IMG/VR virus record: IMGVR_UViG_3300023507_000010
Coordinates: 1 to 25,045 of that record
Length of the DNA stretch: 25,045 nucleotides
Strand: one strand, 5' to 3'
Source of the DNA: a virus
Position 1 is the stretch's first letter. The number at the start of each line of letters is the position of its first letter. The notes under the pieces are model-generated. The model was not told the DNA's origin and ran no database searches. It saw only the letters and a program-made list of their open reading frames with translations. The translations under genes and the position numbers were made by a program. Positions 216 through 20,201 of the stretch are shown here, piece after piece.

Positions 216-1283
216 TCAGACCTGGAGGAGCTCCTGATTCTCCTTGGCGAAGTCGAGGAAGGACTTAGTGTCTGCTACCCCAATGTCCTTGATAAGAGCC
301 TGACGGACGAAAGCAGTCTGGAACTCAATGTGATCGATGCGAGTGATGAACTTCATCAGGTCATCGAAGTTATCCTTGCAGGCGTGCATGGCCAGCATGG
401 TAGTGACTGCATAGAGAGCATCCAGCTTCTTGGGGGTCTTGGCCTTTTCGGGCTTCTTGAGAATCTCTTCAGGATCAGGAAGCTCGTTGAAGATGCGAAT
501 CATGGCTTCGAGCTCTCCTGCAGGGCCTTCTCCGATACAGCCAGCCAGAAGCTGGAAACGAATGCTATCGGGAGCATCGATATGCTTGGAAGCCTGTGCA
601 GTGCTCCTAGGAGTGCAGTTGATGTCCAGCTTGGGATCGAAGCTATCCAGCAGATTCGGACGATACTTGGCAAAGGCAACGACTGCCGGATGCAAGTTGG
701 TCTTGGTGGCCCATTCAACCCAATCTTCAAGGCTGAATTCGAGCGGAAGCTCGTTCATGCGGTCCTTGATGTGCGTGGGCACCTTGTGAGCGTCAGCACG
801 GTCCTTCTGACGGTTACCGGCTGCCACGAAGCGCCATCCTTCGGGGATGACATGCTTACCGATACGATGCTCCAGAAACGCTTCAGAGAAGCCGCCCATG
901 GTGCTCGGAGATGCCTGAGGCAGCTCATCAACGAAGATGATGCCCTGACCGAAGAGAGGGATAAAATCCGGACGAGCGAACATGTATGCCCGCTTGTCTT
1001 CCGTGAAAGTGGGGAGGCCATACAGATCCATAGTAGTAATCATGTTGGCCCGGAAGTCGATAAAGCCGAAACCAGTTTCCATTTCTTCTTTGGAGTGCTC
1101 AGAGTTACCCCGGAAGAGATAGAACTCCTTGCCTGCTTCCTTGGCAAGTTCTTTAGTTGCCTGCAGTACCAGACTGGACTTACCAACGCCAGGGCTGGAA
1201 GTGAGAAACGGAATGATTCCGTGATTCACACAGTGCTTGATGGCAGAGATGGCGGATTTGGGGGTGATTGCAAGAGTGCTCAT
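216..1283 (-). CDS. MoxR-type AAA+ ATPase
   Basis: 355 residues. An AAA+ ATPase of the MoxR/AAA_5 kind is indicated by Walker A SSPGVGKSS (about 29-37), Walker B GIIFVDEL (114-121) and a sensor-1-like AAGN (154-157), followed by a helical lid. MoxR ATPases usually remodel or activate a partner, often a VWA-domain protein. No VWA gene is visible here, although one could lie beyond the window edge. The start ATG overlaps the stop of the upstream array gene (ATGA), so it is the last gene of the leftward early operon and probably translated by coupling. A plausible role is remodelling of a phage or host complex during replication or takeover. The family call is firm and the role is inferred. Confidence 0.85.
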   Translation of the reverse strand: MSTLAITPKSAISAIKHCVNHGIIPFLTSSPGVGKSSLVLQATKELAKEAGKEFYLFRGNSEHSKEEMETGFGFIDFRANMITTMDLYGLPTFTEDKRAYMFARPDFIPLFGQGIIFVDELPQASPSTMGGFSEAFLEHRIGKHVIPEGWRFVAAGNRQKDRADAHKVPTHIKDRMNELPLEFSLEDWVEWATKTNLHPAVVAFAKYRPNLLDSFDPKLDINCTPRSTAQASKHIDAPDSIRFQLLAGCIGEGPAGELEAMIRIFNELPDPEEILKKPEKAKTPKKLDALYAVTTMLAMHACKDNFDDLMKFITRIDHIEFQTAFVRQALIKDIGVADTKSFLDFAKENQELLQV

Positions 1284-1474
1284 TTATTACCTCCTAGTTT
1301 GTTTAACGGTTTGAAACAATTTTCTACTTCTTCATGAAGAAGAACATGCCCATCTAAGAAAAAACAGAGCTCTCTTGGAGCAAGGTTGACTATAGACCCG
1401 ATTGGATATTTAGTGTTAAGTTTCTTATTAATATGCCAACTTGGATCGAGTTCTTTAATTTTAATAGCTTTCAT
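1280..1474 (-). CDS. Array paralogue 13 (MKAI-x-x-K family)
   Basis: 64 residues. Shows the array family pattern: an N-terminal strand MKAIKIKEL, the central KYPIGSIV segment (about 22-29), and a C-terminal EEVENCFKPL. This predicts a small beta-rich, possibly SH3-like barrel (inference from the pattern only). It is the last copy before the MoxR ATPase. Its ATG overlaps the upstream copy by 4 nt and its TGA overlaps the ATPase start by 4 nt. The C-terminus ends NKLGGNK rather than in the DES tail of the central copies, which fits its plain ATGA junction. Function unknown. Confidence 0.75.
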   Translation of the reverse strand: MKAIKIKELDPSWHINKKLNTKYPIGSIVNLAPRELCFFLDGHVLLHEEVENCFKPLNKLGGNK

Positions 1475-1662
1475 TCAAGTAACTTTAATTCCTCTGGATA
1501 AAAAGTCCAACGTCGGTTTCTATAAAAGAATTTATAGAAACGACCGTCTGAACTTATATTTAAATCGAGAACAGAACCTAATTTAAAAGTTCGTTTGTAT
1601 TCTTCGTGCATAGCAGGGTCATCATCCTGTCTGAGAACTAGTTGTACTAGTATCGCTTTCAA
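1471..1662 (-). CDS. Array paralogue 12 (MKAI-x-x-K family)
   Basis: 63 residues. N-terminus MKAILVQLV, central FKLGSVLDL, and C-terminal FYPEELKLLE. The usual Lys7 is Gln here (CAA in place of AAA). Because the upstream gene normally finds its TAA stop across codons 6-7 of the following copy, this change removes that stop and leaves the upstream copy with a longer tail. The stop of this gene is an ATGA overlap with copy 13. No clear Shine-Dalgarno sequence; coupled translation is likely. Function unknown. Confidence 0.7.
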   Translation of the reverse strand: MKAILVQLVLRQDDDPAMHEEYKRTFKLGSVLDLNISSDGRFYKFFYRNRRWTFYPEELKLLE

Positions 1663-1840
1663 TGATTTTCAACTCCTCTGGCCTGAACATCCAAGTATTT
1701 CCGTCTTTATCAATAGTCCGATACATCCCTTCAACTAAGAAGACATCAAGGATTTGACCGATATGGAATCTTTCCAGGTATGAATTGAAATAGAGTTTGC
1801 CTATTTCAGCTTCATTCCATTTGATTAATATGGCTTTCAT
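1622..1840 (-). CDS. Array paralogue 11 with extended tail
   Basis: 72 residues. MKAILIKW start, FHIGQILDV core and RPEELKIIESD near the C-terminus. The last eight residues (TSTTSSQTG region) are an extension read over the start of copy 12, producing a 41-nt overlap in place of the 20-nt overlap typical of the array. The core is recognisably the same family as its neighbours, although the middle segment (GMYRTIDKDGNTW) is divergent. Function unknown. Confidence 0.7.
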   Translation of the reverse strand: MKAILIKWNEAEIGKLYFNSYLERFHIGQILDVFLVEGMYRTIDKDGNTWMFRPEELKIIESDTSTTSSQTG

Positions 1841-2012
1841 TGAGTACTTTGAAAAAGTGTTTCAGAGTGTGTTGGTCAATCAACTGACTAAATTTGTAAT
1901 AGTATTGGTCGCGTATTTTTTCAAATTCTACTATTTGACCTGGTAAAAATTTATAGGATTCTTTTCTATAAAGACGATTTAAAGTAAATGGTTTAACACA
2001 TATCACTTTCAT
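1812..2012 (-). CDS. Array paralogue 10 (divergent)
   Basis: 66 residues. Starts MKVICVKPF, has the central FLPGQIVEF segment and ends KHFFKVLNESHINQME. The NES tail is the array signature, but the reading frame runs three codons past the usual stop, giving a 29-nt overlap with copy 11. Tyr, Phe and Lys are abundant. Function unknown; membership rests on N-terminus, core and junction structure. Confidence 0.7.
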   Translation of the reverse strand: MKVICVKPFTLNRLYRKESYKFLPGQIVEFEKIRDQYYYKFSQLIDQHTLKHFFKVLNESHINQME

Positions 2013-2262
2013 TGATTACAAAACAACTTAATTCGTTATCAAGTATTGGAAACCCGTTTCTATCAGGCCCCTCCCACATAGTATTTTCTAAATGTGGGTA
2101 ATCGTTTTTATTTGGGATAAGTACAGCGTAATTGGCACGAGCATATGGAAGGCCTTCTAATTTAATCAATTCAAAAATAGTAAACAAGGGAAAATAAATA
2201 TTAAAATATTTATTCAGTTCTACCCCTTGTTCTGGTAAGTGTTTAATCAAGATCGCTTTCAT
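1993..2262 (-). CDS. Array paralogue 9 (long form)
   Basis: 89 residues, one of two long copies. MKAILIKHLP start, YFPLFTIFEL core, then an inserted segment ending DNELSCFVINESDMC. It closely parallels copy 8 in the start and the C-terminal half, so the two probably arose from a recent duplication. The stop lies within the first seven codons of copy 10 (20-nt overlap). The glycine of the core P-x-G motif seen in short copies is replaced in both long copies. Function unknown. Confidence 0.75.
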   Translation of the reverse strand: MKAILIKHLPEQGVELNKYFNIYFPLFTIFELIKLEGLPYARANYAVLIPNKNDYPHLENTMWEGPDRNGFPILDNELSCFVINESDMC

Positions 2263-2515
2263 CAGTTACAAAACAGTCCCTCTCATCTTCTTCGATAGGG
2301 AAAGCATTATAGGATTCCCCTTGCATATCAGTACCACCAGCTATACAAGTTTTAAACTTCTGTAAAATTTCTTCTGACTCAACAATCACACCGAAAGCGT
2401 ATCCGTTTGCTACTTCTGTTTCGATTTCAAACTGAGAAAGTAAAGGAAAATACTTATTAAACGTGCGGTTTGCTGCACCTTTATTGGGTAAGTGCTTAAT
2501 CAGAATTGCTTTCAT
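2243..2515 (-). CDS. Array paralogue 8 (long form)
   Basis: 90 residues. MKAILIKHLP start, NKYFPLLSQFEI core, and an acidic C-terminus EEDERDCFVTDESDLD. Sister of copy 9 by length and by the shared MKAILIKHLP, YFPL and CFV..ESD elements. The final DESDLD and stop are encoded by the first 20 nt of copy 9 in another frame. No Shine-Dalgarno sequence is evident upstream of the ATG, so initiation probably depends on ribosomes terminating on copy 7. Function unknown. Confidence 0.75.
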   Translation of the reverse strand: MKAILIKHLPNKGAANRTFNKYFPLLSQFEIETEVANGYAFGVIVESEEILQKFKTCIAGGTDMQGESYNAFPIEEDERDCFVTDESDLD

Positions 2516-2693
2516 CGATTATCCGAAAATATTTTGGGTCAAGTCTGCAGTTTCCTGCTAATACTTTAGCGCTTGGGTAGAAAATTGTAGATCCATCAGT
2601 TTCAAAAATAGAGCCTACAGGATATTTCTGATGAAAGTGTTCTATTTTTGATGGATGAATATAATTAAGAGGTTTAACCAGAATCGCTTTCAT
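2496..2693 (-). CDS. Array paralogue 7 (MKAI-x-x-K family)
   Basis: 65 residues. MKAILVKPLN start, HQKYPVGSIFE core (about 24-34) and C-terminal RLDPKYFRIIDESNSD. Very similar to copy 6, sharing the spacing, the QKYP-hydrophobic-G core and the FRIIDES ending. The last residues and stop are double-coded with the start of copy 8 (20-nt overlap). Predicted small beta-rich protein; function unknown. Confidence 0.78.
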   Translation of the reverse strand: MKAILVKPLNYIHPSKIEHFHQKYPVGSIFETDGSTIFYPSAKVLAGNCRLDPKYFRIIDESNSD

Positions 2694-2874
2694 CGATTAT
2701 TCGAAAAAATCTTGAGTCAAACGCACATAGCCCATTTAGTACAGAATCAGGTTCATAATAAACAAAACCATTGTCACTATTAAAAACAACACCTATAGGA
2801 TATTTTTGATTAAAATGATCTTCATGCTTTTTGATAGGCCAGTTAACTGGTTTAATCAAAATCGCTTTCTTCAT
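2674..2874 (-). CDS. Array paralogue 6 (MKAI-x-x-K family)
   Basis: 66 residues from the ATG at 2874, which gives MKKAILIKPV and aligns with the other copies. A longer frame from 2913 exists but lies inside the preceding gene and adds unrelated residues, so I reject that start. Core FNQKYPIGVVF and C-terminus SRFFRIIDESDSG. The gene overlaps copy 5 by 23 nt at its start and copy 7 by 20 nt at its end. The additional Lys at position 3 explains the 23-nt overlap. Function unknown. Confidence 0.75.
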   Translation of the reverse strand: MKKAILIKPVNWPIKKHEDHFNQKYPIGVVFNSDNGFVYYEPDSVLNGLCAFDSRFFRIIDESDSG

Positions 2875-3043
2875 AGGGAAGTAACCTAAAACAATCCAAT
2901 TCGTCGCCTTCAAGCGTTAGACCATCTACATTAGGATCTTCGGCGCTGATAGTAAGCTCATCTACTGTGACTTCGAAGATATAGCCTGGAAGGTAATTAG
3001 GTAGGTCAGGGTGTTGTTTTTTCAGGATCAACTTCAATTTCAC
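2852..3043 (-). CDS. Array paralogue 5 (divergent)
   Basis: 63 residues. MKLKLILKK start, LPNYLPGYIFEVTVDE core and acidic C-terminus LEGDELDCFRLLPYEESDFD. Divergent in the first ten residues but keeps the P-G-x-I-F-E core, the CFR element and the ESD tail. It starts inside the C-terminal extension of copy 4 (38-nt overlap) and ends inside the first eight codons of copy 6. Function unknown. Confidence 0.7.
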   Translation of the reverse strand: MKLKLILKKQHPDLPNYLPGYIFEVTVDELTISAEDPNVDGLTLEGDELDCFRLLPYEESDFD

Positions 3044-3206
3044 GGAAGCATTCCTCTACTTCTTTTGGGTACAAATACCAGCCATCAAGTGTTTGACCAT
3101 AATGGTTAACACATATTTCAACTATAGAACCTACAGGATACTTTTGATTGATTTCAACATTTACTGAATATTTAATAGGCAACGGTTTAACGAATATAGC
3201 TTTCAT
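3006..3206 (-). CDS. Array paralogue 4 (MKAI-x-x-K family)
   Basis: 66 residues. MKAIFVKPLP start, INQKYPVGSIVEI core and PKEVEECFREIEV at the C-terminus, followed by a short extension DPEKTTP read over the start of copy 5. A good consensus copy. Its own start is used in another frame as the end of the broken copy 3. Function unknown. Confidence 0.78.
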   Translation of the reverse strand: MKAIFVKPLPIKYSVNVEINQKYPVGSIVEICVNHYGQTLDGWYLYPKEVEECFREIEVDPEKTTP

Positions 3207-3431
3207 CTATAATTTTGAAGCATTCGAGTTCATGTCGATAAATAGGGTAATAAGGTTCACTAAGCTCGTTTGCTAATTCAGAATTATTAGTTATTCCTAA
3301 ACCAAGAACAAAAGCTTGATAGTTATCTGCTAAATAGATGCAATCGAATATCGAACCTACAGAAAAAAGCTTATTAAATTCCTTATTTCTTCATCGTCAT
3401 TAGGTAGGGGCTTAATTAGTATCGCTTTCAT
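3187..3431 (-). pseudogene. Frameshifted array paralogue 3
   Basis: The ATG at 3431 opens MKAILIKPLPNDDEE and then leaves frame, reaching TAG after 24 codons. In the minus-one frame the family sequence resumes at once: NKEFNKLFSVGSIFD, then a long middle segment, HELECFKIIDES and a TAA at 3187-3189 inside copy 4. One missing base, most simply an A in the GAAGAAATAAGG stretch near codon 15, explains both halves. The restored protein would be about 81 residues, close to copies 1 and 2 (80 and 77). No canonical slippery heptamer is present. A sequencing error in a short A-run is possible. Confidence 0.75.
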
Positions 3432-3661
3432 TTAAGCACTTTGAAACTTGTTTCAAGTTCTTCTTTAAATAAGGGAAAACAGCCAAATTCACCATAATCC
3501 TTAGCAAAAGCATCGGGGACCTTCAAACCAAATTCAAACATAACATCATCTTGTATTGAAATAACTTCGAATACAGTTCCTATAGAAAAAGTCTCGTTGA
3601 ATTCTTTATTCGACGGTCCTACTGGTGGGGTTGGAAGAGGCTTAACAAATATCGCTTTCAT
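3428..3661 (-). CDS. Array paralogue 2 (MKAI-x-x-K family)
   Basis: 77 residues. MKAIFVKPLP start, SNKEFNETFSIGTVFEV core and C-terminal FKEELETSFKVLK. Close sister of copy 1 through the shared SNKEFNE, FS-L/I-GTVFE and GLKV elements. Both junctions are plain ATGA overlaps of 4 nt, so the DES tail is absent. Function unknown. Confidence 0.78.
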   Translation of the reverse strand: MKAIFVKPLPTPPVGPSNKEFNETFSIGTVFEVISIQDDVMFEFGLKVPDAFAKDYGEFGCFPLFKEELETSFKVLK

Positions 3662-3900
3662 TCAAGTATCTTGAAACAAGTTTTAAATTCGTTGTCGTAT
3701 AAAGGAAATCCACCACACTCTCTATATTCTTCTTGGAAAACACCAGAAACTTTTAAGCCTATTTTAAAATCCTGATTGTCTTTAATAGCGATAGTTTCGA
3801 ATACTGTTCCTAAAGAAAATAATTCATTAAACTCTTTATTCGAACCTACGTAAAATCCATTTTTGTTAGTAGGCAGTGGTTTAATAAAAACAACTCTCAT
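3658..3900 (-). CDS. Array paralogue 1 (first copy after polymerase)
   Basis: 80 residues. MRVVFIKPLP start, SNKEFNELFSLGTVFET core and FKTCFKILE C-terminus. It follows the DNA polymerase directly: the polymerase stop TAA and this ATG share one base (TAATG), so the array is in the polymerase operon and probably coupled to it. Its stop overlaps the start of copy 2 by 4 nt. Function unknown. Confidence 0.78.
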   Translation of the reverse strand: MRVVFIKPLPTNKNGFYVGSNKEFNELFSLGTVFETIAIKDNQDFKIGLKVSGVFQEEYRECGGFPLYDNEFKTCFKILE

Positions 3901-5741
3901 TAGGGTTTCTCGTACCTCTTACTAATAACGTATTCGCCTTCGCAGGGGAATCCGGGTGCCCAGGGAGGCGGTGTCTTGAATGCTTCGTCCATGATTCTGG
4001 CTGCTTTTTCTTCCTCTCCTTCTGGGATAAGGAAAACTCCTTCGTCGTGTACCCTAAGAACGAGGGGGTAGTGTTCTGCAATTTGGTTAAGCTGCCAAAA
4101 TACGAAATGCCTTGCGAATGCTTGGTTGAGTCTGCCTGTTAACAAACCCCCGAAGACTTTGGAGTCCTTACCGTACTTCCAACCATCACCAGTATATCGA
4201 AGGTTAGGAAATTCATGCGGCAGACCTGATACATGAGAAACGACACGGTTCTGTTGCGTTGAATAAGCGATCCTGTCTGTTCCTGGAATGTACCAGAACA
4301 TCTGTTGCCCTTGGTACATGGCTGCGATGAACCGTTCCATGAGGTTCCAGAACTCTGGAACTTTAGAGTGTGCTTGGCGATAGGCCGCATGGATGAGCTG
4401 GGCTTCTGCATCCGAGAGTTGGATCGGAGGCCCCATAAGCCCTGCAGCGAAGATGTACTGCATCTTTCTCCAGGAAGTCTGGTACTGAAGACTCAGCATT
4501 GCAACCTTGCCAACAGCACGTTCCTTGTTTGTTATTTCTTCAATAGGCTTGTGATAAATGTGGTGAGCAGCAAAGTGTGTGTACAAGTCTTCACCAGCCC
4601 GTATCAGTGTGAGCTTGTCATGCTGGCCTGCAAGGTAAAACATGCTTCGAAGCTCGATATTCGAGCTATCTATGACTCCAAGCGAATAACCTGGAGGGGC
4701 CATGATGGCTTCACGAAGCTTGCTACCTCGCGGGAAATTTTGTTTGTTACTTGACTGTCCACCTGAATCCCTGAATGTAGCCTTGGCACCTGCATAGTTC
4801 AGGTAAACGCGACATTGCGGTGTATCGTCCTTGAGCATCCTCTCAGCTCTTGTCTTGAGGATGTTACTCTTTACATTGAGTCGTGCCTCGCACAAGATGC
4901 GAACAGTTGGGTCAGGGTGTTGCTGAAGAGCTTGAAACTCTAGATCCGCTTTGGCGAGCGCCGGTATCTTTTTAGCAGGATTCGATGGACTGGGTTTGTA
5001 GGGTACCTCTACGAATTCCTGAAGAGCCTCTTCAAACTGTTTGTTCGAAGAAAGTACCTTTTTTGTCTGGCTAGGAGTCAATCCAAGTATTTGGCTTGCC
5101 TGATTGAGCAAGCCAGCTCGCTCTTGCTCAGCTTGTTCGATGGCTTCTTCCAAAAGCTGAGTATCAAGCACTAGCCTAGGCTCCACATACATGCGTATGG
5201 TGTGGTGAAGCGTAGTATGCTCTTCTTCAGGTAGTGCTTGGCTGAAGAGCTGGTAAAGCTGATAAGTAAGCTCCACGTCTTGTTGGCAGTACTCCACAAG
5301 ATGTTCCTGCTCGTTTGGTGTCAGGTCGTCCCAGTGTTTACCTTTGACAGAGTCGAGCACACCTGAAAGTTTGGCATCTTGAAGGAACTGACGAGCCAGT
5401 GAATTAAGGCTGAAAGACTCCAGGGCGTTGTTGAATAGCGCCCTGGCTGCCGACAAGGTACAGAAATACCTGAACTTCCCGTGAGGTAGTAGCCCTAGCT
5501 CGTCAAGAACGACAGTATCGAACTGGAGGTTGTGCCCACAAAGGATCGTACCTTCTGGCAAATCTTCAAGGATCTGCTTGATCTGATTAGGCTTCACCCA
5601 GCGGGTAGGTTGGTTATCCAGCTTGATACACACGCCGAACAATTCGAAGTTCGGATGTCTCACGTACTCGATGTACGTGAGTTTCTTAAGAGTGCATTGC
5701 GTGTCGTAGTATGTTTCTATATCAAGAGTAAGTACTGACAT
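3900..5741 (-). CDS. Family A DNA polymerase with 3'-5' exonuclease
   Basis: 613 residues. The N-terminal proofreading exonuclease has LDIET (D7, E9), GHNLQFD (69-75) and an Exo III-like YCQQD (151-155). The polymerase domain has motif A IDSSNIELR (357-365), a motif B region with R408, K412 and Y420, and motif C VHDE (564-567). No 5' nuclease domain is present, as usual for phage family A enzymes. Motif A has DSSN where many relatives have DYSQ. It replicates the phage genome together with the primase-helicase upstream. The start places the DIET motif at the expected N-terminal position; no strong Shine-Dalgarno sequence is seen before it. Its stop shares a base with the first array gene. Confidence 0.95.
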   Translation of the reverse strand: MSVLTLDIETYYDTQCTLKKLTYIEYVRHPNFELFGVCIKLDNQPTRWVKPNQIKQILEDLPEGTILCGHNLQFDTVVLDELGLLPHGKFRYFCTLSAARALFNNALESFSLNSLARQFLQDAKLSGVLDSVKGKHWDDLTPNEQEHLVEYCQQDVELTYQLYQLFSQALPEEEHTTLHHTIRMYVEPRLVLDTQLLEEAIEQAEQERAGLLNQASQILGLTPSQTKKVLSSNKQFEEALQEFVEVPYKPSPSNPAKKIPALAKADLEFQALQQHPDPTVRILCEARLNVKSNILKTRAERMLKDDTPQCRVYLNYAGAKATFRDSGGQSSNKQNFPRGSKLREAIMAPPGYSLGVIDSSNIELRSMFYLAGQHDKLTLIRAGEDLYTHFAAHHIYHKPIEEITNKERAVGKVAMLSLQYQTSWRKMQYIFAAGLMGPPIQLSDAEAQLIHAAYRQAHSKVPEFWNLMERFIAAMYQGQQMFWYIPGTDRIAYSTQQNRVVSHVSGLPHEFPNLRYTGDGWKYGKDSKVFGGLLTGRLNQAFARHFVFWQLNQIAEHYPLVLRVHDEGVFLIPEGEEEKAARIMDEAFKTPPPWAPGFPCEGEYVISKRYEKP

Positions 5742-6342: not shown

Positions 6343-6765
6343 TTAGATTGAACAGGTTGAAAGTTCCTGGCGAAGGCTAGCAAGTTCCTCACTTTCTTTT
6401 GCCCATTGAAGCCACTCAGAAAAAGAAGCTTCAAGTTTCTTGGTAACAGACGCAGTTACAATAGAAGTATATTCTTCTCTAGAAATGTCATTATCACATT
6501 CAAAACATACTTTTGTCCCTCCAAGGTAAAATTTAATAATATAAGTTTTACCTTTTACTTCGATACTACCAGCCATACTTGAGGAGTATGAAGAATTATT
6601 AAAACGAGGATCAGTCACTCCCTTGATTTTTGCAGTGTCAGACTGCAATTTTTCTCGTTTCTTTTTGAATTCTTTCTCCATAGAAAGGAGCTTTTTGATT
6701 TTCTGTCCGTGCTTGGACATCCAGGCATCAAACAGCTCTTGTGCGTAGTCAAGCTCGGCTTTCAC
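6343..6765 (-). CDS. Coiled-coil N-terminus protein, GTG start, unknown
   Basis: 140 residues from a GTG at 6765. Residues about 5-45 are a Lys/Glu-rich probable coiled coil (KEFKKKREKL). A beta-rich middle follows (MAGSIEVKGKTYIIKFYLGG) with two Cys around VCFECD, then a helical end. The frame is open a further 21 codons upstream without an ATG (GKTLAPVLGIVFSRESP), so the true start may be different or the 5' end may have decayed. No good Shine-Dalgarno sequence lies before the GTG. Function unknown. Confidence 0.6.
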   Translation of the reverse strand: MKAELDYAQELFDAWMSKHGQKIKKLLSMEKEFKKKREKLQSDTAKIKGVTDPRFNNSSYSSSMAGSIEVKGKTYIIKFYLGGTKVCFECDNDISREEYTSIVTASVTKKLEASFSEWLQWAKESEELASLRQELSTCSI

Positions 6766-6842
6766 TGGAGACTCACGAGAAAAAACAATGCCCAGTACAG
6801 GGGCAAGAGTCTTACCACACTCGCTTTTTCAACGTGATAGTC

Positions 6843-6899
6843 TTACAGATCTGCTGCATCGAGAATGGACTGGCAGTTTTTACGGAAAATGATGGGCAT
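6843..6899 (-). CDS. 18-residue ORF with strong ribosome-binding site
   Basis: Reads MPIIFRKNCQSILDAADL. The sequence AAGGAGATCTAACT precedes the ATG, so the Shine-Dalgarno is near ideal, and the stop of the upstream gene lies inside it, 2 nt before the ATG. The same AAGGAGATCTA sequence precedes the gene starting at 6330. It may be a genuine micro-protein or the intact head of a longer gene that lost its frame, since a frame without ATG stays open into the GTG gene downstream. Confidence 0.4.
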   Translation of the reverse strand: MPIIFRKNCQSILDAADL

Positions 6900-6901
6900 A
6901 G

Positions 6902-7294
6902 TTAGATCTCCTTAGTGGTGTCTGTACCTTCTTTAATTTGTTCTAAAAACCACTTTAGTTTTTCTCTTTGAAAAGAAGGCAAGATTTCAATCGCCCTCTT
7001 TTTAGTTATTTGCTTAAAAAGTTTGTAATCAAAATTTGATGCGTATCGATTAAGATTTTTCCCGTGTTTAAGAAGATAAGCTGCTTTGTAATGTTTTAAC
7101 TTGTCTCCTCGGAGAGACCCAAAAAGAGAGTAACCAGTATGAGTCGGAATATCGAAGAGGTTAATTATCTTAGTTACTACTGAGCTATAAGAATGAGGGT
7201 TGTACCCTTCTTCAAGAACTTTAATAAGCCTGTTCCTGGTTACTGTTGATAGTTCAGAAGGGTGTAGGGTAATTGTATGTGTAACACCTTTCAT
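6902..7294 (-). CDS. Unknown basic protein
   Basis: 130 residues from the ATG at 7294 (MKGVTHTITLHPSEL). This start is preferred over an in-frame ATG at 7312 because AAGGA lies 7 nt upstream and the ATG forms an ATGA overlap with the preceding stop. Basic and Tyr/Lys-rich, with a C-terminal helix LKWFLEQIKEGTD. The middle (RGDKLKHYKAAYLLKHG) could bind nucleic acid, but no motif is clear. Function unknown. Confidence 0.65.
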   Translation of the reverse strand: MKGVTHTITLHPSELSTVTRNRLIKVLEEGYNPHSYSSVVTKIINLFDIPTHTGYSLFGSLRGDKLKHYKAAYLLKHGKNLNRYASNFDYKLFKQITKKRAIEILPSFQREKLKWFLEQIKEGTDTTKEI

Positions 7295-7497
7295 TCGAGT
7301 TTCCTTAACCATTTTTTATTGAAGCAAAAGCCCTCTGAGTTACGCGTCTGGACAAAACGTGGTGTAACAACTACAACAGTGTCAACCACTCCATGGAAAT
7401 GATCCATTTCTTCAAGCCAATAAGGCCGCTCTCTTATATCTTCCGGTTTGATAATTATTACCTTGTCCCCTGGTTTCAATCGAGTTCTTTCAGACAT
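7291..7497 (-). CDS. Second mini-array, copy 3 (KOW/SH3-like)
   Basis: 68 residues: MSERTRLKPGDKVIIIKPED, then a Val-rich strand segment, and NKKWLRKLE at the end. The PGDKVIIIKPED element resembles a KOW/SH3-like strand-turn-strand. It begins with the same MSERT codons as the next copy upstream, because those codons also encode the end (ECLKELD and stop) of that copy in another frame. Divergent in the core, so paralogy is probable rather than certain. Confidence 0.6.
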   Translation of the reverse strand: MSERTRLKPGDKVIIIKPEDIRERPYWLEEMDHFHGVVDTVVVVTPRFVQTRNSEGFCFNKKWLRKLE

Positions 7498-7679
7498 TCA
7501 TTAGCCTCTTCGTCAGTCCAGTAACAAAGATTACCGTTGTTTTTGTGAACAACGCATTTATTTTCTGCGTCAAGAACTACAATAGAACCCACAGGATGAA
7601 GCCTATTTATTCTTTTGTTTGCACTAGCAAACCAATCTAATGGAAGATCTTTAATAACTATGTAAGTTCTTTCAGACAT
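7476..7679 (-). CDS. Second mini-array, copy 2
   Basis: 67 residues: MSERTYIVIKDLP start, INRLHPVGSIVVLD core and TDEEANECLKELD end. The HPVGSIV core and the position of the KDLP element match the large array at 1280-3900, so this is a distant outgroup of the same family. The start overlaps copy 1 by 22 nt and the end overlaps copy 3 by 22 nt. No independent Shine-Dalgarno sequence is obvious. Function unknown. Confidence 0.7.
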   Translation of the reverse strand: MSERTYIVIKDLPLDWFASANKRINRLHPVGSIVVLDAENKCVVHKNNGNLCYWTDEEANECLKELD

Positions 7680-7861
7680 TCATTAACTTCCTTTGGTGTC
7701 CAGACGCAGACGCCTACACAAGAAGAGCATACAAGAGACCCATTACTTCTTAGGTTTCCCGTTATGACAGAGCCAACAGGATGGTTTTTGTTGATGAGCA
7801 GATTGAAATTCGAATGTTCTTCACTCAGGGCCTTGACTACAATGTAAGTTTTCGTAGGCAT
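7658..7861 (-). CDS. Second mini-array, copy 1
   Basis: 67 residues: MPTKTYIVVKALS start, INKNHPVGSVITG core and TPKEVNECLKELT end. It is about as long as copy 2 and aligns with it without gaps at the ends. Its first codons also encode the end of a truncated copy upstream. AGAGGA lies about 12 nt before the ATG, further than ideal, so coupling may matter. Function unknown. Confidence 0.7.
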   Translation of the reverse strand: MPTKTYIVVKALSEEHSNFNLLINKNHPVGSVITGNLRSNGSLVCSSCVGVCVWTPKEVNECLKELT

Positions 7862-10633: not shown

Positions 10634-11027
10634 GGTGTAGCTGGAAATGAATAGAAAAGACTGTAAGTTATTGATTTTATTGTTTTGATGTAGAGATGTA
10701 TTTTTCTGATGAAAAGAGGTTGAAATATTCTACCTTAGAAACAGTAGGGATATTAACTTGCTGCCGGTTTAGCATATAGAATGTAGGAATTTTCGTCATC
10801 AAATGAAGTTTTTTGGTGCTCAGTAAGGGGGGTAAGCGCTTGAAAAATAAGGAAGGGTGTAGAAATGTATTTTTATATTTATCATTGGTATTTAAAATAC
10901 GTGTATATATAGGTAAAAAGAAAAAAATCAGAAAGTTTTTGAAAAGGGGGTTTTTCCTACATCATGATGCATCTTTTGGAAAAACCTACATCGCTCATTT
11001 TTGATGAAGAGTTCGAACGATGTAGGT
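10634..11027. other. AT-rich non-coding region, candidate replication or control region
   Basis: Nearly 400 bp without a credible gene, rich in A/T runs. It contains an imperfect direct repeat around TGTAGAAATGTATTTTT (about 10690-10706 and 10859-10875), a 10-bp palindrome CATCATGATG (10960-10969), and CCTACATC at 10956-10963 and 10985-10992 with its inverse at 11019-11026. Position next to the primase operon and composition would suit an origin or control region. No DnaA-box set was recognised. Confidence 0.4.
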
Positions 11028-11029
11028 TT
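10982..11029 (-). terminator. Terminator after the left-arm block 1
   Basis: AAACCTACATCG (10982-10993) and CGATGTAGGTTT (11018-11029) form a perfect 12-bp stem with a 24-nt loop. In the leftward sense the 3' arm runs into GGTTTTTCC, giving a short U-tract. It begins at the stop codon of the 11028-11252 gene. The loop is longer than typical, so it may be a weak terminator. Confidence 0.55.
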
Positions 11030-11252
11030 AGTCCTTCCAGATAGACAGCTGAATGAGTGCCTGTTCGAATGAAACAGGCTCGTTTTTTGTGTGGAAAAGT
11101 TTGAACCACCACGCTCCGTCTGAGCAAATTCTGGCGACAGTTGGGTATTGGAATGCCCAAGGATCTCTAGTATCCATTTTCGGAAAGTACTGAAGAAGTT
11201 TTTGTAGTTGTTCCGGTGTTTTGATTGAGACTGTCAAGGAATCGCTTTTCAT
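11028..11252 (-). CDS. Small protein, paralogue of the next gene upstream
   Basis: 74 residues: SLTVSIKTPEQLQKLL near the start, DGAWWFKLF in the middle and EPVSFEQALIQLS at the end. The order and spacing of these three elements match the 11167-11577 product (VAISISNAEEFELL, DLVCWFSSI, EPISVEQAILIL), so the two are paralogues. Its start lies inside that gene (86-nt overlap) with no clear Shine-Dalgarno, implying coupling. Function unknown. Confidence 0.65.
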   Translation of the reverse strand: MKSDSLTVSIKTPEQLQKLLQYFPKMDTRDPWAFQYPTVARICSDGAWWFKLFHTKNEPVSFEQALIQLSIWKD

Positions 11253-11577
11253 AGGGTTTGAGTATCAAGATTGCTTGTTCTACTGAAATTGGTTCCAGTT
11301 CTTTTTGTTCTAGTGGGATACCTTCCGTATCCATTATTGAGCTGAACCAGCACACCAGGTCTTTACGAACTAGCAGTGTTGTTGGGAAGTCAAGCTCGTC
11401 TGTATTGAAGCTGTTAGGTCTATTCGGATGCCGCAGGGTTATCAAGGCTTGACGAAGAAGTTCGAATTCTTCCGCATTACTGATTGAGATGGCCACAAAG
11501 AAGTCATCGTGGTGCATCGTTGCTATGCCCATACGCTTTTTCAGTGGGTATGGAACTTGAATCTCGTAGTTGTACAT
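11167..11577 (-). CDS. Unknown protein, longer paralogue
   Basis: 136 residues from the ATG at 11577 (MYNYEIQVPYPLKKR), chosen because AAAGG lies 7 nt upstream. An in-frame ATG at 11598 has no ribosome site. The last 28 residues (rich in Thr, Ser and Asn) are read over the start of the 11028-11252 gene and look like a stop-loss extension. The core shares three elements with that downstream gene. Function unknown. Confidence 0.65.
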   Translation of the reverse strand: MYNYEIQVPYPLKKRMGIATMHHDDFFVAISISNAEEFELLRQALITLRHPNRPNSFNTDELDFPTTLLVRKDLVCWFSSIMDTEGIPLEQKELEPISVEQAILILKPYEKRFLDSLNQNTGTTTKTSSVLSENGY

Positions 11578-11618
11578 TTTTGTACCTTTCGTATCCATTG
11601 TTGATTTGTGCTGATTAT

Positions 11619-11846
11619 TTAGCTCCAGATAAGTTCGTAAAGTTCTTTGGAAGCGTCTTTTGGTTTGGGTGTTATTGCTATTTGTTTATACGAACACCTT
11701 TCAAAATACGAGACGCTCCAATAAGACCATTCACCGTTTTCTATGTATTTAGGTTGGTGACTGTATACGTAAACAGTTTCGGTGGGGTTGATGACAAGCC
11801 ATTTCGCTCATTCAGGAATTTCAACATCGATTTTGAGAGTAGCCAT
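11619..11846 (-). pseudogene. Small gene interrupted by in-frame TGA at codon 13
   Basis: The ATG at 11846, with a good Shine-Dalgarno GGGAGG upstream, reads MATLKIDVEIPE and meets TGA. The same frame then continues open for 62 codons as AKWLVINPTETVYVYSHQPK and on to ELIWS, TAA. The joined sequence resembles small phage proteins with an IPxWAK-x-I/L motif followed by a VYxYxxxP strand pair, where the interrupted position is Trp. A TGG-to-TGA change is therefore the simplest explanation. No ATG restart lies in the following frame. Readthrough or a sequencing error are alternatives. Confidence 0.65.
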
Positions 11847-11890
11847 AGGTGCTTACCTCCCTTGGCATCCCGGTTGATTTGGTTCGTAAG

Positions 11891-11952
11891 AATCAAACAA
11901 ACCTCTCTGTGAAAGTCGCTGTCAGACCTTGTACAGAGAGGTTTGTTTGATT
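11891..11952. terminator. Long perfect inverted repeat, probable terminator
   Basis: A 20-bp perfect inverted repeat, arms 11891-11910 and 11933-11952, with a 22-nt loop. It lies between the stop of the leftward gene at 11954 and the next leader. In the leftward sense the 3' arm is U-rich (GGTTTGTTTGATTCTT), consistent with termination. The stem is unusually long and repeats perfectly, so a regulatory RNA or recombination role is also possible. Confidence 0.5.
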
Positions 11953-11953
11953 T

Positions 11954-12196
11954 TCACTGAGTTGTTTTTCTTGTCCACCACCAGTTCATGAGCCTGAGCC
12001 CTGCAGAGATAGTTATCCCTGCGTAGGTAGTGACTGTTACTACCATGTTCGACCTGACCATGATAATCAGGTACACCAGCAGACAGAGCAGGGCCAGATC
12101 GATCCAGGCTCGGTAGGGCAGGGCTTGCGCCCTGAAGGGCCATATGACCCACAGGAAGCCTAAACCCATGCTAATCCCTGTGATCATCTCGTTCAT
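11954..12196 (-). CDS. Small membrane protein, holin-like topology
   Basis: 80 residues from the ATG at 12196, with Shine-Dalgarno GGAGG 6 nt upstream. Hydrophobic stretches at about 5-20 (ISMGLGFLWVIW), 30-45 (IDLALLCLLVYLIIM) and 48-66 are compatible with two or three TM segments, followed by a basic tail NWWWTRKTTQ. Topology resembles small holins, but the phage lysis genes appear on the other strand, so the role is open. It starts inside the end of the upstream membrane gene (26-nt overlap). Confidence 0.6.
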   Translation of the reverse strand: MNEMITGISMGLGFLWVIWPFRAQALPYRAWIDLALLCLLVYLIIMVRSNMVVTVTTYAGITISAGLRLMNWWWTRKTTQ

Positions 12197-12335
12197 TGAA
12201 GCCTCCGAAGTAAGCCAGTCCGAGAATACCAAGGCTGATAAGCCCCAAGATGAAGATTGCCCCTTTGAATAGGGGCACGACGAGGGGGGCTGCCAGAGCC
12301 CCTACTAGCCCTGCTATCAGTACTTCTTTACTCAT
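12171..12335 (-). CDS. 54-residue hydrophobic membrane protein
   Basis: Reads MSKEVLIAGLVGALAAPLVV and continues with a second hydrophobic stretch FILGLISLGILGLAYF, then an acidic, hydrophilic tail. Two TM segments predicted. The ATG lies at the end of the upstream gene, whose stop is in ATGAGTAA, so translation is probably coupled; AAGG lies about 10 nt upstream. Function unknown; membership in a small-membrane-protein cluster is clear. Confidence 0.65.
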   Translation of the reverse strand: MSKEVLIAGLVGALAAPLVVPLFKGAIFILGLISLGILGLAYFGGFNERDDHRD

Positions 12336-12465
12336 CAGGAGCTACCTTTTTGCTGAGGCAGGAAAGTACCTTAGAGAGCTCTTTGCGAGCTTTCTTGATG
12401 GGCTGCGGACGCTTGTATTGGTCCACTGTTGTTTTCTTAGGCCTTTCGATGATTACCTTGATCAT
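12328..12465 (-). CDS. 45-residue basic protein
   Basis: Starts MIKVIIERPKKTTVDQYKRP at the ATG at 12465, preceded by a near-perfect Shine-Dalgarno GGAGGTGATCC. Longer frames upstream read out of phase through the neighbour. Very Lys/Arg-rich middle, suggesting nucleic-acid or membrane-surface contact, but no domain is recognised. The start overlaps the upstream stop (ATGA). Confidence 0.6.
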   Translation of the reverse strand: MIKVIIERPKKTTVDQYKRPQPIKKARKELSKVLSCLSKKVAPDE

Positions 12466-12671
12466 TGGATCACCTCCATATTTCCGTTGATAACGCGATA
12501 GACTGGGGTACCGGCGCTGTCGTAGCAGACTCGATTCGCTGATTCGTGTGGTTGATACAGACGGCAGGTGACTTCTTGTCCCCGCCACGTTTCTTGAACG
12601 TACTCGCTAGGCACGAACAGTAGGGCTGAAAGTCCTACTAACAGTGCTAGCATCTCAAAAATTACACGCAT
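12462..12671 (-). CDS. Small exported or membrane-anchored protein
   Basis: 69 residues. Residues 5-20 (FEMLALLVGLSALLFV) form a hydrophobic signal or anchor after a short basic N-terminus. The remainder is polar with two Cys (about 36 and 49) that could pair in the periplasm. No lipobox. A strong GGGGAGGTAACC precedes the ATG. It is the first of four consecutive small genes, three of them membrane-associated. Function unknown. Confidence 0.6.
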   Translation of the reverse strand: MRVIFEMLALLVGLSALLFVPSEYVQETWRGQEVTCRLYQPHESANRVCYDSAGTPVYRVINGNMEVIQ

Positions 12672-12702
12672 GGTTACCTCCCCGATTGATAGTTACCAAG
12701 CC

Positions 12703-12740
12703 TTGTTAAAAAGAAGAAATAAGGGGGCCGAAGCCCCCTT
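12703..12740 (-). terminator. Rho-independent terminator (TTCG loop)
   Basis: In the leftward sense AAGGGGGC-TTCG-GCCCCCTT (12721-12740) is followed by ATTTCTTCTTTTT. It ends the transcript of the 12746-13615 gene. The same stem type recurs at 13903-13926 and at 22020-22039, so it is a favoured terminator design of this phage. Confidence 0.9.
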
Positions 12741-12745
12741 GAAGG

Positions 12746-13615
12746 TCAGTGACATGCAGGGCGGACACCTGCGTCTTGTTCGGCGCGAGTTTGAAGGTCA
12801 TCGACTTCTGAGCCCTCTTGTTGCAGTTCCTCGCGTTTCTTCTCGAGGTGCGTGATCTCGGGCTCCAGAAGTTCAGCCAGTGCCTTGAGTTCCAAGTGAT
12901 TGGCTTGGATCTCATGTGAGAGGTCTTGGCTCCAATCATCTACGATGCTCCTGGCCACCGTATTTTTGGTAGCTTTTGCAGCGCGGATAATGGCGTTGGC
13001 GATAGCCAGTTCTTCGCTGATCTCGAGATCGAAGATGGAGCTTTTGCGCTTGGCTACAGCTTGGGCGATGAACTCATCACCCATCATGAACGCCGTGCGC
13101 AGGCGCTCTTTTGCGCGTTCCACCCTCTTGGCCATGGCGGCTTTGAAGAGAGTGACGAGTTCATCGCCCTCGAAGCCGAGCTTCTTGAGCTCCTCGGCCT
13201 TTTGTTTGAAGCCGAGGGGGACGCCAGACTTGAGCAGCTCCTGTTGCTCTTCTTCACTGAAGCCCAGTTCCTTCATGAGATCTGGGTCAGGCTCTTCGGT
13301 GCGAGGCATGAAGCCCCGCTGTCTGCCATCGACGAAGTCCTCGACGATGGGTTCCAGAGCCATCACTTCAAGCTGCCCTGCAGCGTAATGGACTGCGTCT
13401 AACGTGTGTTCCAGCTCCTGCTCTGCTTTTTGGAGCAGTTCTGCTTGGTGCTGGCGTTGCTTCTCGGTAGTGCCTTCTACGCGAATGGAATGTGTCCGCT
13501 CCATCGCGTTCCACGCCCTGAAGAGCAGGGCATTCAGAGCTACCCTGCGGGCGTTCATGGGGTTGTTGCTCATGGGAGAGCTGCCTTCGTTGATCATGGT
13601 AAGTACTTTGCTCAT
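12746..13615 (-). CDS. Long helical protein, unknown
   Basis: 289 residues, strongly helical and charged, starting MSKVLTMINEGSSP. Coiled-coil propensity is visible at about 50-75 (QHQAELLQKAEQELEHTL) and near the C-terminus (THLEKKREELQQEGSEVDD). A Pro/Glu linker lies around residue 105. Shine-Dalgarno GAGGA is 7 nt before the ATG. No catalytic motif recognised. The length and charge suggest a DNA-associated or scaffolding role, but that is only a guess. Confidence 0.7.
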   Translation of the reverse strand: MSKVLTMINEGSSPMSNNPMNARRVALNALLFRAWNAMERTHSIRVEGTTEKQRQHQAELLQKAEQELEHTLDAVHYAAGQLEVMALEPIVEDFVDGRQRGFMPRTEEPDPDLMKELGFSEEEQQELLKSGVPLGFKQKAEELKKLGFEGDELVTLFKAAMAKRVERAKERLRTAFMMGDEFIAQAVAKRKSSIFDLEISEELAIANAIIRAAKATKNTVARSIVDDWSQDLSHEIQANHLELKALAELLEPEITHLEKKREELQQEGSEVDDLQTRAEQDAGVRPACH

Positions 13616-13618
13616 GGT

Positions 13619-13780
13619 TCAGTCCTCTTGGTTTTGGTGAATTTCTTCCTCTTCGATCAGCTGTTCGAGAGGATCTTTGCAATTGGCGGGCACTTGCACC
13701 CACCAGCCTTCGTCCTTCGAGACGAAGCAGTCTTGATCGACGAGCAGTAACAGCTCGCCGGGTTGTTGCTTCATAGCCAT
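13619..13780 (-). CDS. 53-residue acidic protein
   Basis: Starts MAMKQQPGELLLLVDQDCFV, contains GWWVQVP and ends in an acidic helix (EQLIEEEEIHQNQED). GGAGGTAACC precedes the ATG. Its stop is 4 nt before the start of the next gene, whose Shine-Dalgarno lies inside its last codons. The strand-rich first half with a WW pair is compatible with a small SH3-like fold. Function unknown. Confidence 0.65.
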   Translation of the reverse strand: MAMKQQPGELLLLVDQDCFVSKDEGWWVQVPANCKDPLEQLIEEEEIHQNQED

Positions 13781-13790
13781 GGTTACCTCC

Positions 13791-13876
13791 ATCTAGTTGC
13801 TCTAGAAGCACTAACAACTACTAGCCAGCTTCGCTGGCCTGACAGCGAGCGAAGCGAGCTGGCATCCCGGAGTAAC
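13791..13876 (-). promoter_or_regulatory. Repeated leader element, copy A
   Basis: Shares an ordered series with 14145-14202: ATCTAGTTG, AGCAC, AAC-ACTAC, a hairpin GCCAGC-TTC-GCTGGC (13824-13838) and TCCCGGAGT-AC. Copy A has about 25 extra bases, including AGCGAGCGAAGCGAGCT, which can fold further. It sits directly upstream of the ribosome site of the 13780 gene, so it is part of its leader or promoter. Role unknown. Confidence 0.5.
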
Positions 13877-13889
13877 GTAGGGAGGCAGA

Positions 13890-13926
13890 GAAAAACAAAG
13901 TAAATAAGGGGCCGAAGCCCCTTATT
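13890..13926 (-). terminator. Rho-independent terminator (TTCG loop)
   Basis: In the leftward sense AATAAGGGGC-TTCG-GCCCCTTATT (13903-13926) is followed by TACTTTGTTTTT. It lies directly after the stop of the Cys-rich protein gene. Confidence 0.88.
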
Positions 13927-13928
13927 AG

Positions 13929-14132
13929 TCAGATAGGTCTAATCTCTCTGCTACGTTCGACTCTTGCCCACTCTTCACTAAGAATGTACTGTTCTTGCGG
14001 ATCGAGTTCAGGCAGAGGCTGCCATTCGTTGCACCATTCATTGGCATTGACAGGCAGCATTTGATCTGCCTGTGGGCAGAAGCCGGGGTTAAGACCCGCA
14101 ATCTTGCAGTTTTTGCAATTAAATTGACTCAT
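13929..14132 (-). CDS. Small Cys-rich, probable metal-binding protein
   Basis: 67 residues from the ATG at 14132 (MSQFNCKNCKIAGLNPGF), preceded by GGAG 7 nt upstream. Cys6, Cys9, Cys19 and Cys34 (CxxC, then FCP, then EWCNEW) could bind zinc or a small cluster. The C-terminal half is acidic and helical. It is the first leftward gene after the central repeat region and has its own terminator. An upstream in-frame ATG at 14165 has no ribosome site. Role unknown; DNA binding or transcription control would be a guess. Confidence 0.7.
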   Translation of the reverse strand: MSQFNCKNCKIAGLNPGFCPQADQMLPVNANEWCNEWQPLPELDPQEQYILSEEWARVERSREIRPI

Positions 14133-14144
14133 CTTTTGTCTCCT

Positions 14145-14202
14145 ATCTAGTTGAACAAGCACCAACCACTACAGGCCAGCGCAGCTGGCGTCCCGGAGTC
14201 AC
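14145..14202 (-). promoter_or_regulatory. Repeated leader element, copy B
   Basis: Second copy of the leader element at 13791-13876, with hairpin GCCAGC-GCA-GCTGGC (14175-14189). It lies just upstream of the ribosome site of the Cys-rich gene. The stem is identical in both copies while the loop differs (GCA here, TTC in copy A), which suggests the stem matters. Confidence 0.5.
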
Positions 14203-14300
14203 CCGTATGGGTCCCCCTTCAAGTTTTCGAAATCCGAAATCCGAACCGGGGTGTATCAAATAGAAGAGGGGGAGGGGTACTTTCACCACCTTACTTATCA
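14203..14300. other. Non-coding flank of the central region
   Basis: No gene. Contains a small hairpin ACCC-GTAT-GGGT and a tandem CGAAATC-CGAAATC-CGAACC (14228-14247). The leftward promoter for the Cys-rich gene should lie in or next to this segment, but I see no convincing -35/-10 pair. Confidence 0.35.
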
Positions 14301-14690
14301 CATTTTTACTAGGAGCACTCCGTACCTATGTATTTAAATACATTTTTACTAGGAGCACTCCGTACCTATGTATTTAAATACATTTTTACTAGGAACACTT
14401 CGTACCTATGTATTTAAATATATTTTTACTAGGAACACTCCGTACCTATGTATTTAAATATATTTTACTAGGAGCACTCCGTACCTATGTATTTAAATAT
14501 ATTTTACTAGGAGCACTCCGTACCTATGTATTTAAATATATTTTTACTAGGAACACTCCGTACCTATGTATTTAAATATATTTTTACTAGGAACACTCCG
14601 TACCTATATATTTAAATATATTTTTACTAGGAACACTCCGTACCTATATATTTAAATATATTTTTACTAGGAACACTCCGTACCTATGTA
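14301..14690. repeat. Ten tandem copies of a 40-bp repeat
   Basis: Units begin at 14301, 14341, 14381, 14421, 14461, 14500, 14539, 14579, 14619 and 14659. Each has ACTAGGA(G/A)CACTCC, then GTACCTAT(G/A) and TATTTAAATA. Units 5 and 6 are 39 bp after loss of one T. The last unit breaks off before the TTTAAATA part. There are no variable spacers, so it is not CRISPR. It lies at the divergent centre, 75 bp upstream of terS. Candidate roles: terminase recognition (pac), replication origin, or an array of regulator-binding or weak promoter sites. Confidence 0.95.
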
Positions 14691-14765
14691 CTCCATAGGT
14701 ACTTACTCTTAACCTCTTATACCTTATACTTGTACTAAATCAGTACTCCCACTAAACTACGCAGT
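14680..14765 (+). promoter_or_regulatory. terS leader with hairpin at the array end
   Basis: GTACCTATG-TACTC-CATAGGTAC (14680-14702) is a perfect 9-bp hairpin formed by the end of the last repeat and the sequence replacing its AT tail. Downstream, TATACT (14725-14730) could serve as a -10 for the rightward late genes, but no good -35 is present. No Shine-Dalgarno sequence precedes the terS ATG. Confidence 0.4.
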
Positions 14766-15227
14766 ATGCTAAGCCTTGCAGAACAACAGTTTGCAAAGAA
14801 CCTGGCTCTAGGCATGCCGCAAACTGCGGCTGCCCGTGCTGCATCTGTCCCTGCTTCTAATGTAAAGGACTTGATGGCGAACCCTGAAATACACCAGGCA
14901 GTAGCCCAGCATAGACAGGAAATCGAAAATCGTGTGCTTGTTAGTAGGAATGACGTATTACAAGGCCTTTTGAGCGCCGTAGAAGATGCGAAATTACAAG
15001 GTGAAGTAATGCCTCAAGTTGCTGCCTGGCGCGAAATCGGGAAGATAATCGGAGCTTACGCCCCTGAAGAGAAGAAAATTACTTATTCTGGTGATGTAAC
15101 AGTCATCCAAAGAAAAATCCGTGAGCTGGCCGATGAAAAGCTTCAGGAATATGCTTTGATTGAAGGAGAAGTTGTTAGTGAAGAACTTCCCGAAGAACCT
15201 ACTGAACTTAAGGAGCAAGCAGGTTGA
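14766..15227 (+). CDS. terS: Terminase small subunit
   Basis: 153 residues. An N-terminal helical DNA-binding region (SLAEQQFAKNLALGMPQTAA, then SVPASNVKDLMANPE) is followed by a helical oligomerisation region and an acidic tail. This layout, the length and the position immediately before terL identify the packaging subunit that recognises phage DNA. The tandem repeats just upstream are its obvious candidate target. The ATG has no visible Shine-Dalgarno sequence, unusual among its neighbours. The stop overlaps the terL TTG start. Confidence 0.8.
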   Translation: MLSLAEQQFAKNLALGMPQTAAARAASVPASNVKDLMANPEIHQAVAQHRQEIENRVLVSRNDVLQGLLSAVEDAKLQGEVMPQVAAWREIGKIIGAYAPEEKKITYSGDVTVIQRKIRELADEKLQEYALIEGEVVSEELPEEPTELKEQAG

Positions 15228-16849: not shown

Positions 16850-16852
16850 ATG

Positions 16853-16872
16853 CTTACTTGTAAGCAAGTAAG
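16853..16872 (+). other. Short intergenic hairpin between terL and portal
   Basis: CTTACTTG-TAAG-CAAGTAAG is a perfect 8-bp stem with a 4-nt loop, immediately after the terL stop and before the portal ribosome site. Only TTTG follows, so termination would be weak. It may be an mRNA-stability or processing element. Confidence 0.5.
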
Positions 16873-16898
16873 TTTGAAAGAACTAAGAGGTTGGTAAC

Positions 16899-19019: not shown

Positions 19020-19056
19020 TATACCCGCGTACGTACCCACTTATTAAGGAGCAAGT

Positions 19057-19965
19057 ATGTCCGAAGAAATTGAAAACCTGGATCGTGGTGACGAGCTTCT
19101 CGAGGAAGAAGAAACTGTCGAGGAGGAAGTAGAGGAAACCGAAGATAATGAGGCAGAAGAAGCGACAGAAGAGGAAGCAGAGGAAGAAGCGGGAGAAAAG
19201 GAAGACTCTGACGAAGAGGTTGACGAAGAGCCTCGTATCCCTAAAAAGCGCCTTGATCAGGTTATTCAACAGCGCCGCGCTCTCGAAGAGCGTATCAAGC
19301 GCATGGAGCAGGAGCGCGAGGAGCTTCTGAAACAGGCTAAGGAACGCGCTCCGGAAAACGAGTCCAACAGTGACGAGCCCTCTGCGGAGGAGCTTCTCGT
19401 AGAGCTTGACGAGAAGATCAACGATGCGCTTCTCGACGGCGACAAGGAGCTTGCCAAGCAGCTGCGGCAACAGCAGCGTGAGCTTGAGAGGCATATTTAT
19501 CAGCAGGAACTTGAGCGCACTACCCAGACCGCTGCTGCCCAGGCCCGCGAACAAGTTCGTTTGGACGCCACTATCGACTTCCTGGAGTCTACTTACCCTC
19601 AGCTCAACCCCGAGTCTGAAGAGTTCAACCAGGATCTTGTAAACGAGCTGGAGTCTCTGCGTTCTGTACTTGAACGCTCTGGCGAATACTCCCCCAGTCA
19701 GGCTGTATTGGCAGCAGCGAAGTATGTACTGCGGCCTGATATGCCTGAAACTCCTCCCGCCTCCAAGCCTGCCCCGACTAAGTCGAAGGCAGTCAAGAAA
19801 GCTGTGGAAGCAGCCAAGAAGCAGCCGCCTAACCTTAAAGATGTTGGTGAAGATGCTGACAAAGCAGGTATGGTCGAAGAGATCGACCCGCTTAAACTTA
19901 CCGAGAAGGATCTTGAGACGCTGCCTGCAGCCACGCTGGCGAAACTCAGAGGTGATATCCTGTGA
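19057..19965 (+). CDS. Capsid scaffolding protein
   Basis: 302 residues. A very acidic first 50 residues (mostly Glu and Asp) are followed by a charged coiled coil (ALEERIKRMEQEREELLKQA), a helical middle, and a Lys/Pro-rich C-terminal region. Position between portal and capsid, acidity and helix content are typical of phage scaffold proteins that guide procapsid assembly. AAGGAG precedes the ATG. The stop overlaps the next GTG start (GTGA). Confidence 0.85.
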   Translation: MSEEIENLDRGDELLEEEETVEEEVEETEDNEAEEATEEEAEEEAGEKEDSDEEVDEEPRIPKKRLDQVIQQRRALEERIKRMEQEREELLKQAKERAPENESNSDEPSAEELLVELDEKINDALLDGDKELAKQLRQQQRELERHIYQQELERTTQTAAAQAREQVRLDATIDFLESTYPQLNPESEEFNQDLVNELESLRSVLERSGEYSPSQAVLAAAKYVLRPDMPETPPASKPAPTKSKAVKKAVEAAKKQPPNLKDVGEDADKAGMVEEIDPLKLTEKDLETLPAATLAKLRGDIL

Positions 19966-20171: not shown

Positions 20172-20195
20172 CAAGCTTTATTTGCTTGCTAAACT
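20168..20195 (+). promoter_or_regulatory. Sigma70-like promoter before the capsid gene
   Basis: TTGACA (20168-20173), 16-bp spacer, TAAACT (20190-20195). A consensus -35 with a four-of-six -10. Transcription would begin near 20202, giving the capsid mRNA a structured leader of about 215 nt or, if terminated, a short RNA of about 170 nt. Confidence 0.6.
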
Positions 20196-20201
20196 AAGCA
20201 C

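Follow-up and report, generated by a model that had tools for sequence, protein, structure and literature searches.

An array of thirteen overlapping, diverged paralogs, predicted to encode small SH3-like proteins, between the DNA polymerase and MoxR ATPase genes of an uncultured phage

Introduction

In Bacillus phage G, a zinc-ribbon gene is reported to have undergone a lineage-specific expansion to about 35 copies (PMC7824862). In phage T4, segmental tandem amplification of tifA has arisen in the laboratory via recombination at short homology and has been linked to counter-defense (PMC9391042). T4 also encodes MotB, an early protein with a predicted SH3-like/KOW domain that binds DNA and alters the interaction of H-NS with DNA; a related gene, motB.1, lies adjacent to motB (PMC7827196). 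In jumbo phages, a small SH3-fold gene has been described beside the DNA polymerase gene (PMC7824862).

Here, we describe a gene array in an uncultured phage, represented by the IMG/VR virus fragment IMGVR_UViG_3300023507_000010, whose 25,045 bases constitute the window that we analyzed. Like the zinc ribbons of phage G, the array is a lineage-specific expansion of one small gene family of unassigned function, although its products are predicted to be SH3-like barrels. The remark in a first-pass annotation that a genome under packing constraints would normally not retain such a number of copies of one gene was thus too strong in view of phage G; expansions of phage paralogs are already known, and the array is a fresh variant of them. 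The amplification of tifA, likewise a tandem amplification of a phage gene, offers a parallel but not the same state, as it consists of recent repeats of one segment, whereas the copies described here are old, with about 30% identity, and the link to counter-defense drawn for tifA is conjectural for the array. MotB and MotB.1 are, by description, alike in being small early phage proteins from adjacent genes of one family, with an SH3-like/KOW domain predicted in MotB; unlike the array proteins, both share a second, OB-fold domain, and the T4 genes are few against fifteen here. The jumbo phage gene, also compared by description, lies upstream of a different polymerase type, whereas here thirteen copies lie downstream of a family A polymerase.

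Results

Gene layout and members of the family

The phage has distant relatives in Pseudomonas phages KPP25 and phiR18, with 39% identity in the portal and 34% in the polymerase. On its minus strand, read from the right, the primase gene comes first, followed by a set of small genes, the gene for a family A DNA polymerase, the array, and the gene for a MoxR-type ATPase, a gene order from which the label "early operon" would follow. The array spans positions 1280-3900 (minus strand) and holds 13 overlapping ORFs of 63-90 aa, without gaps; it begins 1 nt inside the polymerase stop codon and finishes 4 nt inside moxR, and successive ORFs overlap by 1-41 nt in the full range. The ORFs bear out the initial description of twelve intact copies and one broken copy between the two flanking genes. 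Thirteen, however, is not the full size of the family, since two more paralogs lie at 7476-7861, bringing the total to fifteen. The flanking genes and the family members are as follows.

Family A DNA polymerase, 3900..5741, minus strand: upstream of the array; PF00476 E 1.2e-18, phrog_17 E 4e-72
MoxR-type ATPase (moxR), 216..1283, minus strand: downstream of the array; phrog_1297 (ATPase) E 1e-75
c1, 3658..3900, minus strand: 80 aa; jackknife E 4.8e-13; start and polymerase stop share 1 nt
c2, 3428..3661, minus strand: 77 aa; jackknife E 4e-14; 55% identical to c1
c3, 3187..3431, minus strand: broken, one frame change after about 15 codons; profile matches the halves in two frames
c4, 3006..3206, minus strand: 66 aa; best family-profile match; jackknife E 1.5e-16; AlphaFold2 pLDDT 90
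c5, 2852..3043, minus strand: 63 aa; GTG start; weakest member, jackknife E 0.012; position and junction fit the array
c6, 2674..2874, minus strand: 66 aa; jackknife E 1.1e-9
c7, 2496..2693, minus strand: 65 aa; jackknife E 2e-10
c8, 2243..2515, minus strand: 90 aa, long form; jackknife E 1.6e-10
c9, 1993..2262, minus strand: 89 aa, long form; jackknife E 4.3e-14; AlphaFold2 pLDDT 85
c10, 1812..2012, minus strand: 66 aa; jackknife E 3.8e-6
c11, 1622..1840, minus strand: 72 aa; jackknife E 1.7e-5
c12, 1471..1662, minus strand: 63 aa; TTG start; jackknife E 3.7e-5
c13, 1280..1474, minus strand: 64 aa; jackknife E 4.4e-13; 3' end carries the moxR ribosome-binding site (AGGAGGT)
d15, 7476..7679, minus strand: 67 aa; paralog outside the array; jackknife E 1.1e-13
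d14, 7658..7861, minus strand: 67 aa; paralog outside the array; overlaps d15; jackknife E 1.3e-9

Past its single frame change, c3 is otherwise readable to the conserved C terminus; the change could be a real mutation or, the source being a metagenome assembly, a sequence error. Next to d15, a 68-aa ORF at 7291-7497 (minus strand) has the start sequence ATGTCTGAAAGAACT in common with it and overlaps its neighbors by 22 nt; this ORF looks SH3-like by eye and is not among the sequences of the family profile.

The copies form one diverged family

To assess the relatedness of the copies, we built a profile without each copy in turn and searched it for the copy left out (Z=500), with 200 shuffles per copy as a control. 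Left-out copies were recovered at E values from 1.5e-16 to 3.7e-5, and the top score across all shuffles was 8.3 bits. The exception was c5, recovered at E 0.012 with 11.1 bits, compared with 3.2 bits for its best shuffle. Homology beyond chance was thus found for the copies, with c5 alone weak, in agreement with the paralogy first proposed. The coding frame is free of stops in every intact copy, and each of the other two forward frames holds 4-13. The shared motifs that had been reported are looser than claimed: over 14 copies, only I4 and K7 are near-invariant, and the core varies among YPVGSI(V/F), FSLGTVF, FHIGQIL, FLPGQIV, and FPLFTIF.

Mean identity among the copies is 30%, and the closest pair, c1 and c2, reaches 55%. 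Net charge ranges from -10.6 to +3.5, being below -1 in 10 of the 15 copies; c10 and c13 are basic. The C-terminal part is the more variable, with an identity of 0.22 versus 0.34 and a length of 30-60 versus 24-35 residues. In a neutral-drift simulation, the product for twelve open frames was under 1e-12 with as few as 0.3 draws per site; open frames at such deep divergence suggest that the copies are probably kept by selection. dS was computable for four pairs, and dN was the lower value in each; dS was often saturated, and adaptive diversification is therefore not separable from relaxed constraint.

The GC content of the array is 34%, compared with 49% for the polymerase and 53% for moxR, and its GC3 is 27% versus 60% in the large genes. 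Because the small genes near 6343-7861 are likewise AT-rich, this composition marks accessory genes here generally.

Predicted fold

In the AlphaFold2 models of c4 and c9, the elements follow one another identically: strand, helix, strands, short helix, strand. Of the five models computed for c4, two reached only 53-55 pLDDT, and the fold is based on the three that scored higher. In comparisons with solved structures, all matches stayed below a Z of 5, and most were to SH3 domains, to the SH3-like domains of DtxR/IdeR, to FeoA, and to PsaE. Despite these weak matches, the two models support the earlier guess of an SH3-like fold as a likely prediction, that is, small SH3-like barrels. The extra residues of the longer copies are located in the C-terminal half, between core strands. 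In a Foldseek search of a viral library, the common top match of both models was an uncharacterized protein of Aeromonas phage AS-zj (E 0.02-0.04), a genome in which the family profile found nothing.

Junctions, duplication, and translation

Adjacent copies resemble each other more closely than copies do on average (mean identity 0.351 versus 0.295, permutation p 0.0003), indicating that the array would have arisen through serial tandem duplication. Neighbors also pair in the tree, whose support is modest, with a single strongly supported fork and some long branches. As no pair of copies exceeds 55% identity, none of the duplications is recent.

The most conserved DNA of the array is found at the gene starts. 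Over the first 23 nt of twelve copies, the major base has a frequency of 82%, compared with a mean of 44% and a maximum of 52% in random sets, and a 30-nt direct repeat present in 8 copies is located at these starts. Successive genes overlap by 4, 20, 23, 29, 38, or 41 nt when the c6 start is placed at 2874. In the 20-nt type, for example ATGAAAGCGATTCTGGTTAA, one stretch serves both to end a gene (DESDSG or similar, then stop) and to begin its successor (MKAILVK). Such a junction also forms the longest exact repeat of the array, the 15-nt ATAATCGATGAAAGC, which occurs between c6 and c7 and again between c7 and c8, making recombination at junctions during array growth plausible.

Few good Shine-Dalgarno sequences are found inside the array, and most copies are without one, unlike moxR, primase, and the large terminase, each of which has a Shine-Dalgarno of 6-7 nt; translational coupling via overlapping stops and starts is therefore likely. 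We also considered a single polyprotein made by frameshifting, which was rejected on inspection, as the junctions have no repeated slippery site and each copy has its own start.

Search for relatives

None of the copies matched a curated family (Pfam, PHROGs, NCBIfam, PADLOC) above threshold. The best curated match was DUF7397 for c6, at E 0.0044 and 17.2 bits against a cut-off of 27. The PADLOC scan, against a library of mainly defense proteins, was empty. tblastn of c4, d15, and c9 against 50,697 phage records yielded nothing or chance matches, and single-protein scans of IMG/VR, with polymerase, MoxR, primase, d15, or c4 as the query, recovered no relatives. Degenerate DNA patterns were also scanned, two of them against IMG/VR and one against genome contigs; judged by profile, all matches were due to chance. 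The IMG/VR and genome-contig scans (viral and prokaryote) used exact patterns of limited sensitivity, so absence elsewhere is not established. Two candidate profile matches were discarded: one in Klebsiella phage N1M2, which is antisense within a 10-kb gene and contains a stop, and one weak match among 398 bacterial genomes of one phylum, which lies inside a 602-aa frame.

By profile, no family members were detected in KPP25, ctwe8250, phiA008, or the examined part of AP1. A terminase scan led to IMGVR_UViG_3300009408_000073, which stops short of the array, and to more distant loci without family members; the closest environmental contigs do not span the array region. The former record is 99.98% identical to the window over 10916-25045 and runs about 900 bases further. 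The databases and contigs searched yielded no related phage with the array, and copy-number change is therefore not observable. Literature searches for tandem phage paralogs were mostly empty. Judged by its sequences, the family turned up in none of the databases and searches covered here.

Discussion

Tentatively, and with rather less than even confidence, we favor the reading that the products of an old amplification have been retained as small, diversified proteins for early binding, each probably with a different partner, host proteins being the likeliest. One gene for a small SH3-like barrel would have undergone an old, lineage-specific expansion, the array growing by repeated tandem duplication at the junction. 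The copies would be translated one after another from one message, coupled at the overlapping stop and start codons. Each copy would keep the barrel core and differ in length, charge, and surface, probably binding a different partner; the likeliest would be host proteins, including defense and host-regulatory proteins, bound early in infection. We infer this last step from gene position, the AT-rich accessory character, the lack of detected relatives, and the pattern of divergence. Position and divergence suggest that the most likely use is probably anti-defense or host takeover. Against this reading, no copy matches a known anti-defense protein or a profile of known function, and K7 and the core residues common to the copies could point to one common job for all instead.

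That near-invariant K7 and core would also suit copies acting as distinct subunits or adaptors within a single phage machine, built on the upstream DNA polymerase or the downstream MoxR ATPase, with paralogs in non-equivalent places. The array adjoins both genes without gaps, small SH3-fold proteins beside jumbo phage polymerases have been suggested as possible polymerase subunits, and MoxR-vWA chaperone pairs have been described in phages (Iyer et al., PMC7824862). The wide range of net charge and the large differences in length do not, however, suggest equivalent positions, one copy is broken, and no member is detectable in the sampled KPP25-like relatives; we regard this explanation as unlikely, if worth serious weight. 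Slightly harder to credit is a role as regulators that each bind DNA or RNA at a site specific to the copy and modulate the transcription or translation of host or phage genes. Nucleic-acid binders occur among SH3-like folds, the early DNA-binding protein MotB is a precedent (PMC7827196), and similarity to the SH3-like domains of DtxR/IdeR is predicted, but most copies are acidic and the resemblance is at fold level only.

We find it doubtful that the array is a diversification cassette, in which each junction would be gene end, gene start, and recombination site at once, so that SH3-like binders could be added, lost, and reshuffled as a repertoire of alternative inhibitors against varying host defenses. 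Protein dosage, one of the hypotheses first put forward, is suggested by the tandem layout and by the increased expression that accompanies tifA amplification in T4 (PMC9391042); raising the amount of one protein would call for near-identical copies, whereas these differ in sequence, length, and charge, which leaves dosage very improbable. Equally hard to accept are non-functional remnants of a past duplication burst, retained by chance: one copy is broken and no conserved catalytic residues are seen, but 12 of 13 frames remain open at deep divergence, where the neutral expectation is negligible, and dN is below dS where measurable.

With thirteen overlapping, diverged copies in a compact phage genome, the array is a ready-made resource for experiments on the diversification of binding proteins by phages. 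Should the copies each act on a different host target, new anti-defense or host-takeover proteins built on one small scaffold could be screened for among them. The dual-coding junction is a testable model for the growth of overlapping gene arrays.

Other features of the window

Positions 14302-14690, which lie between the early genes on the minus strand and the terminase genes on the plus strand, contain a 40-bp tandem repeat in about 9.8 copies; it includes the palindrome TATTTAAATA and is a candidate for origin iterons or a promoter array. At 23356-23820 on the plus strand, a 154-aa protein matches phrog_1128 (E 1.1e-22), annotated as enoyl-CoA hydratase-like in the moron/host-takeover category.
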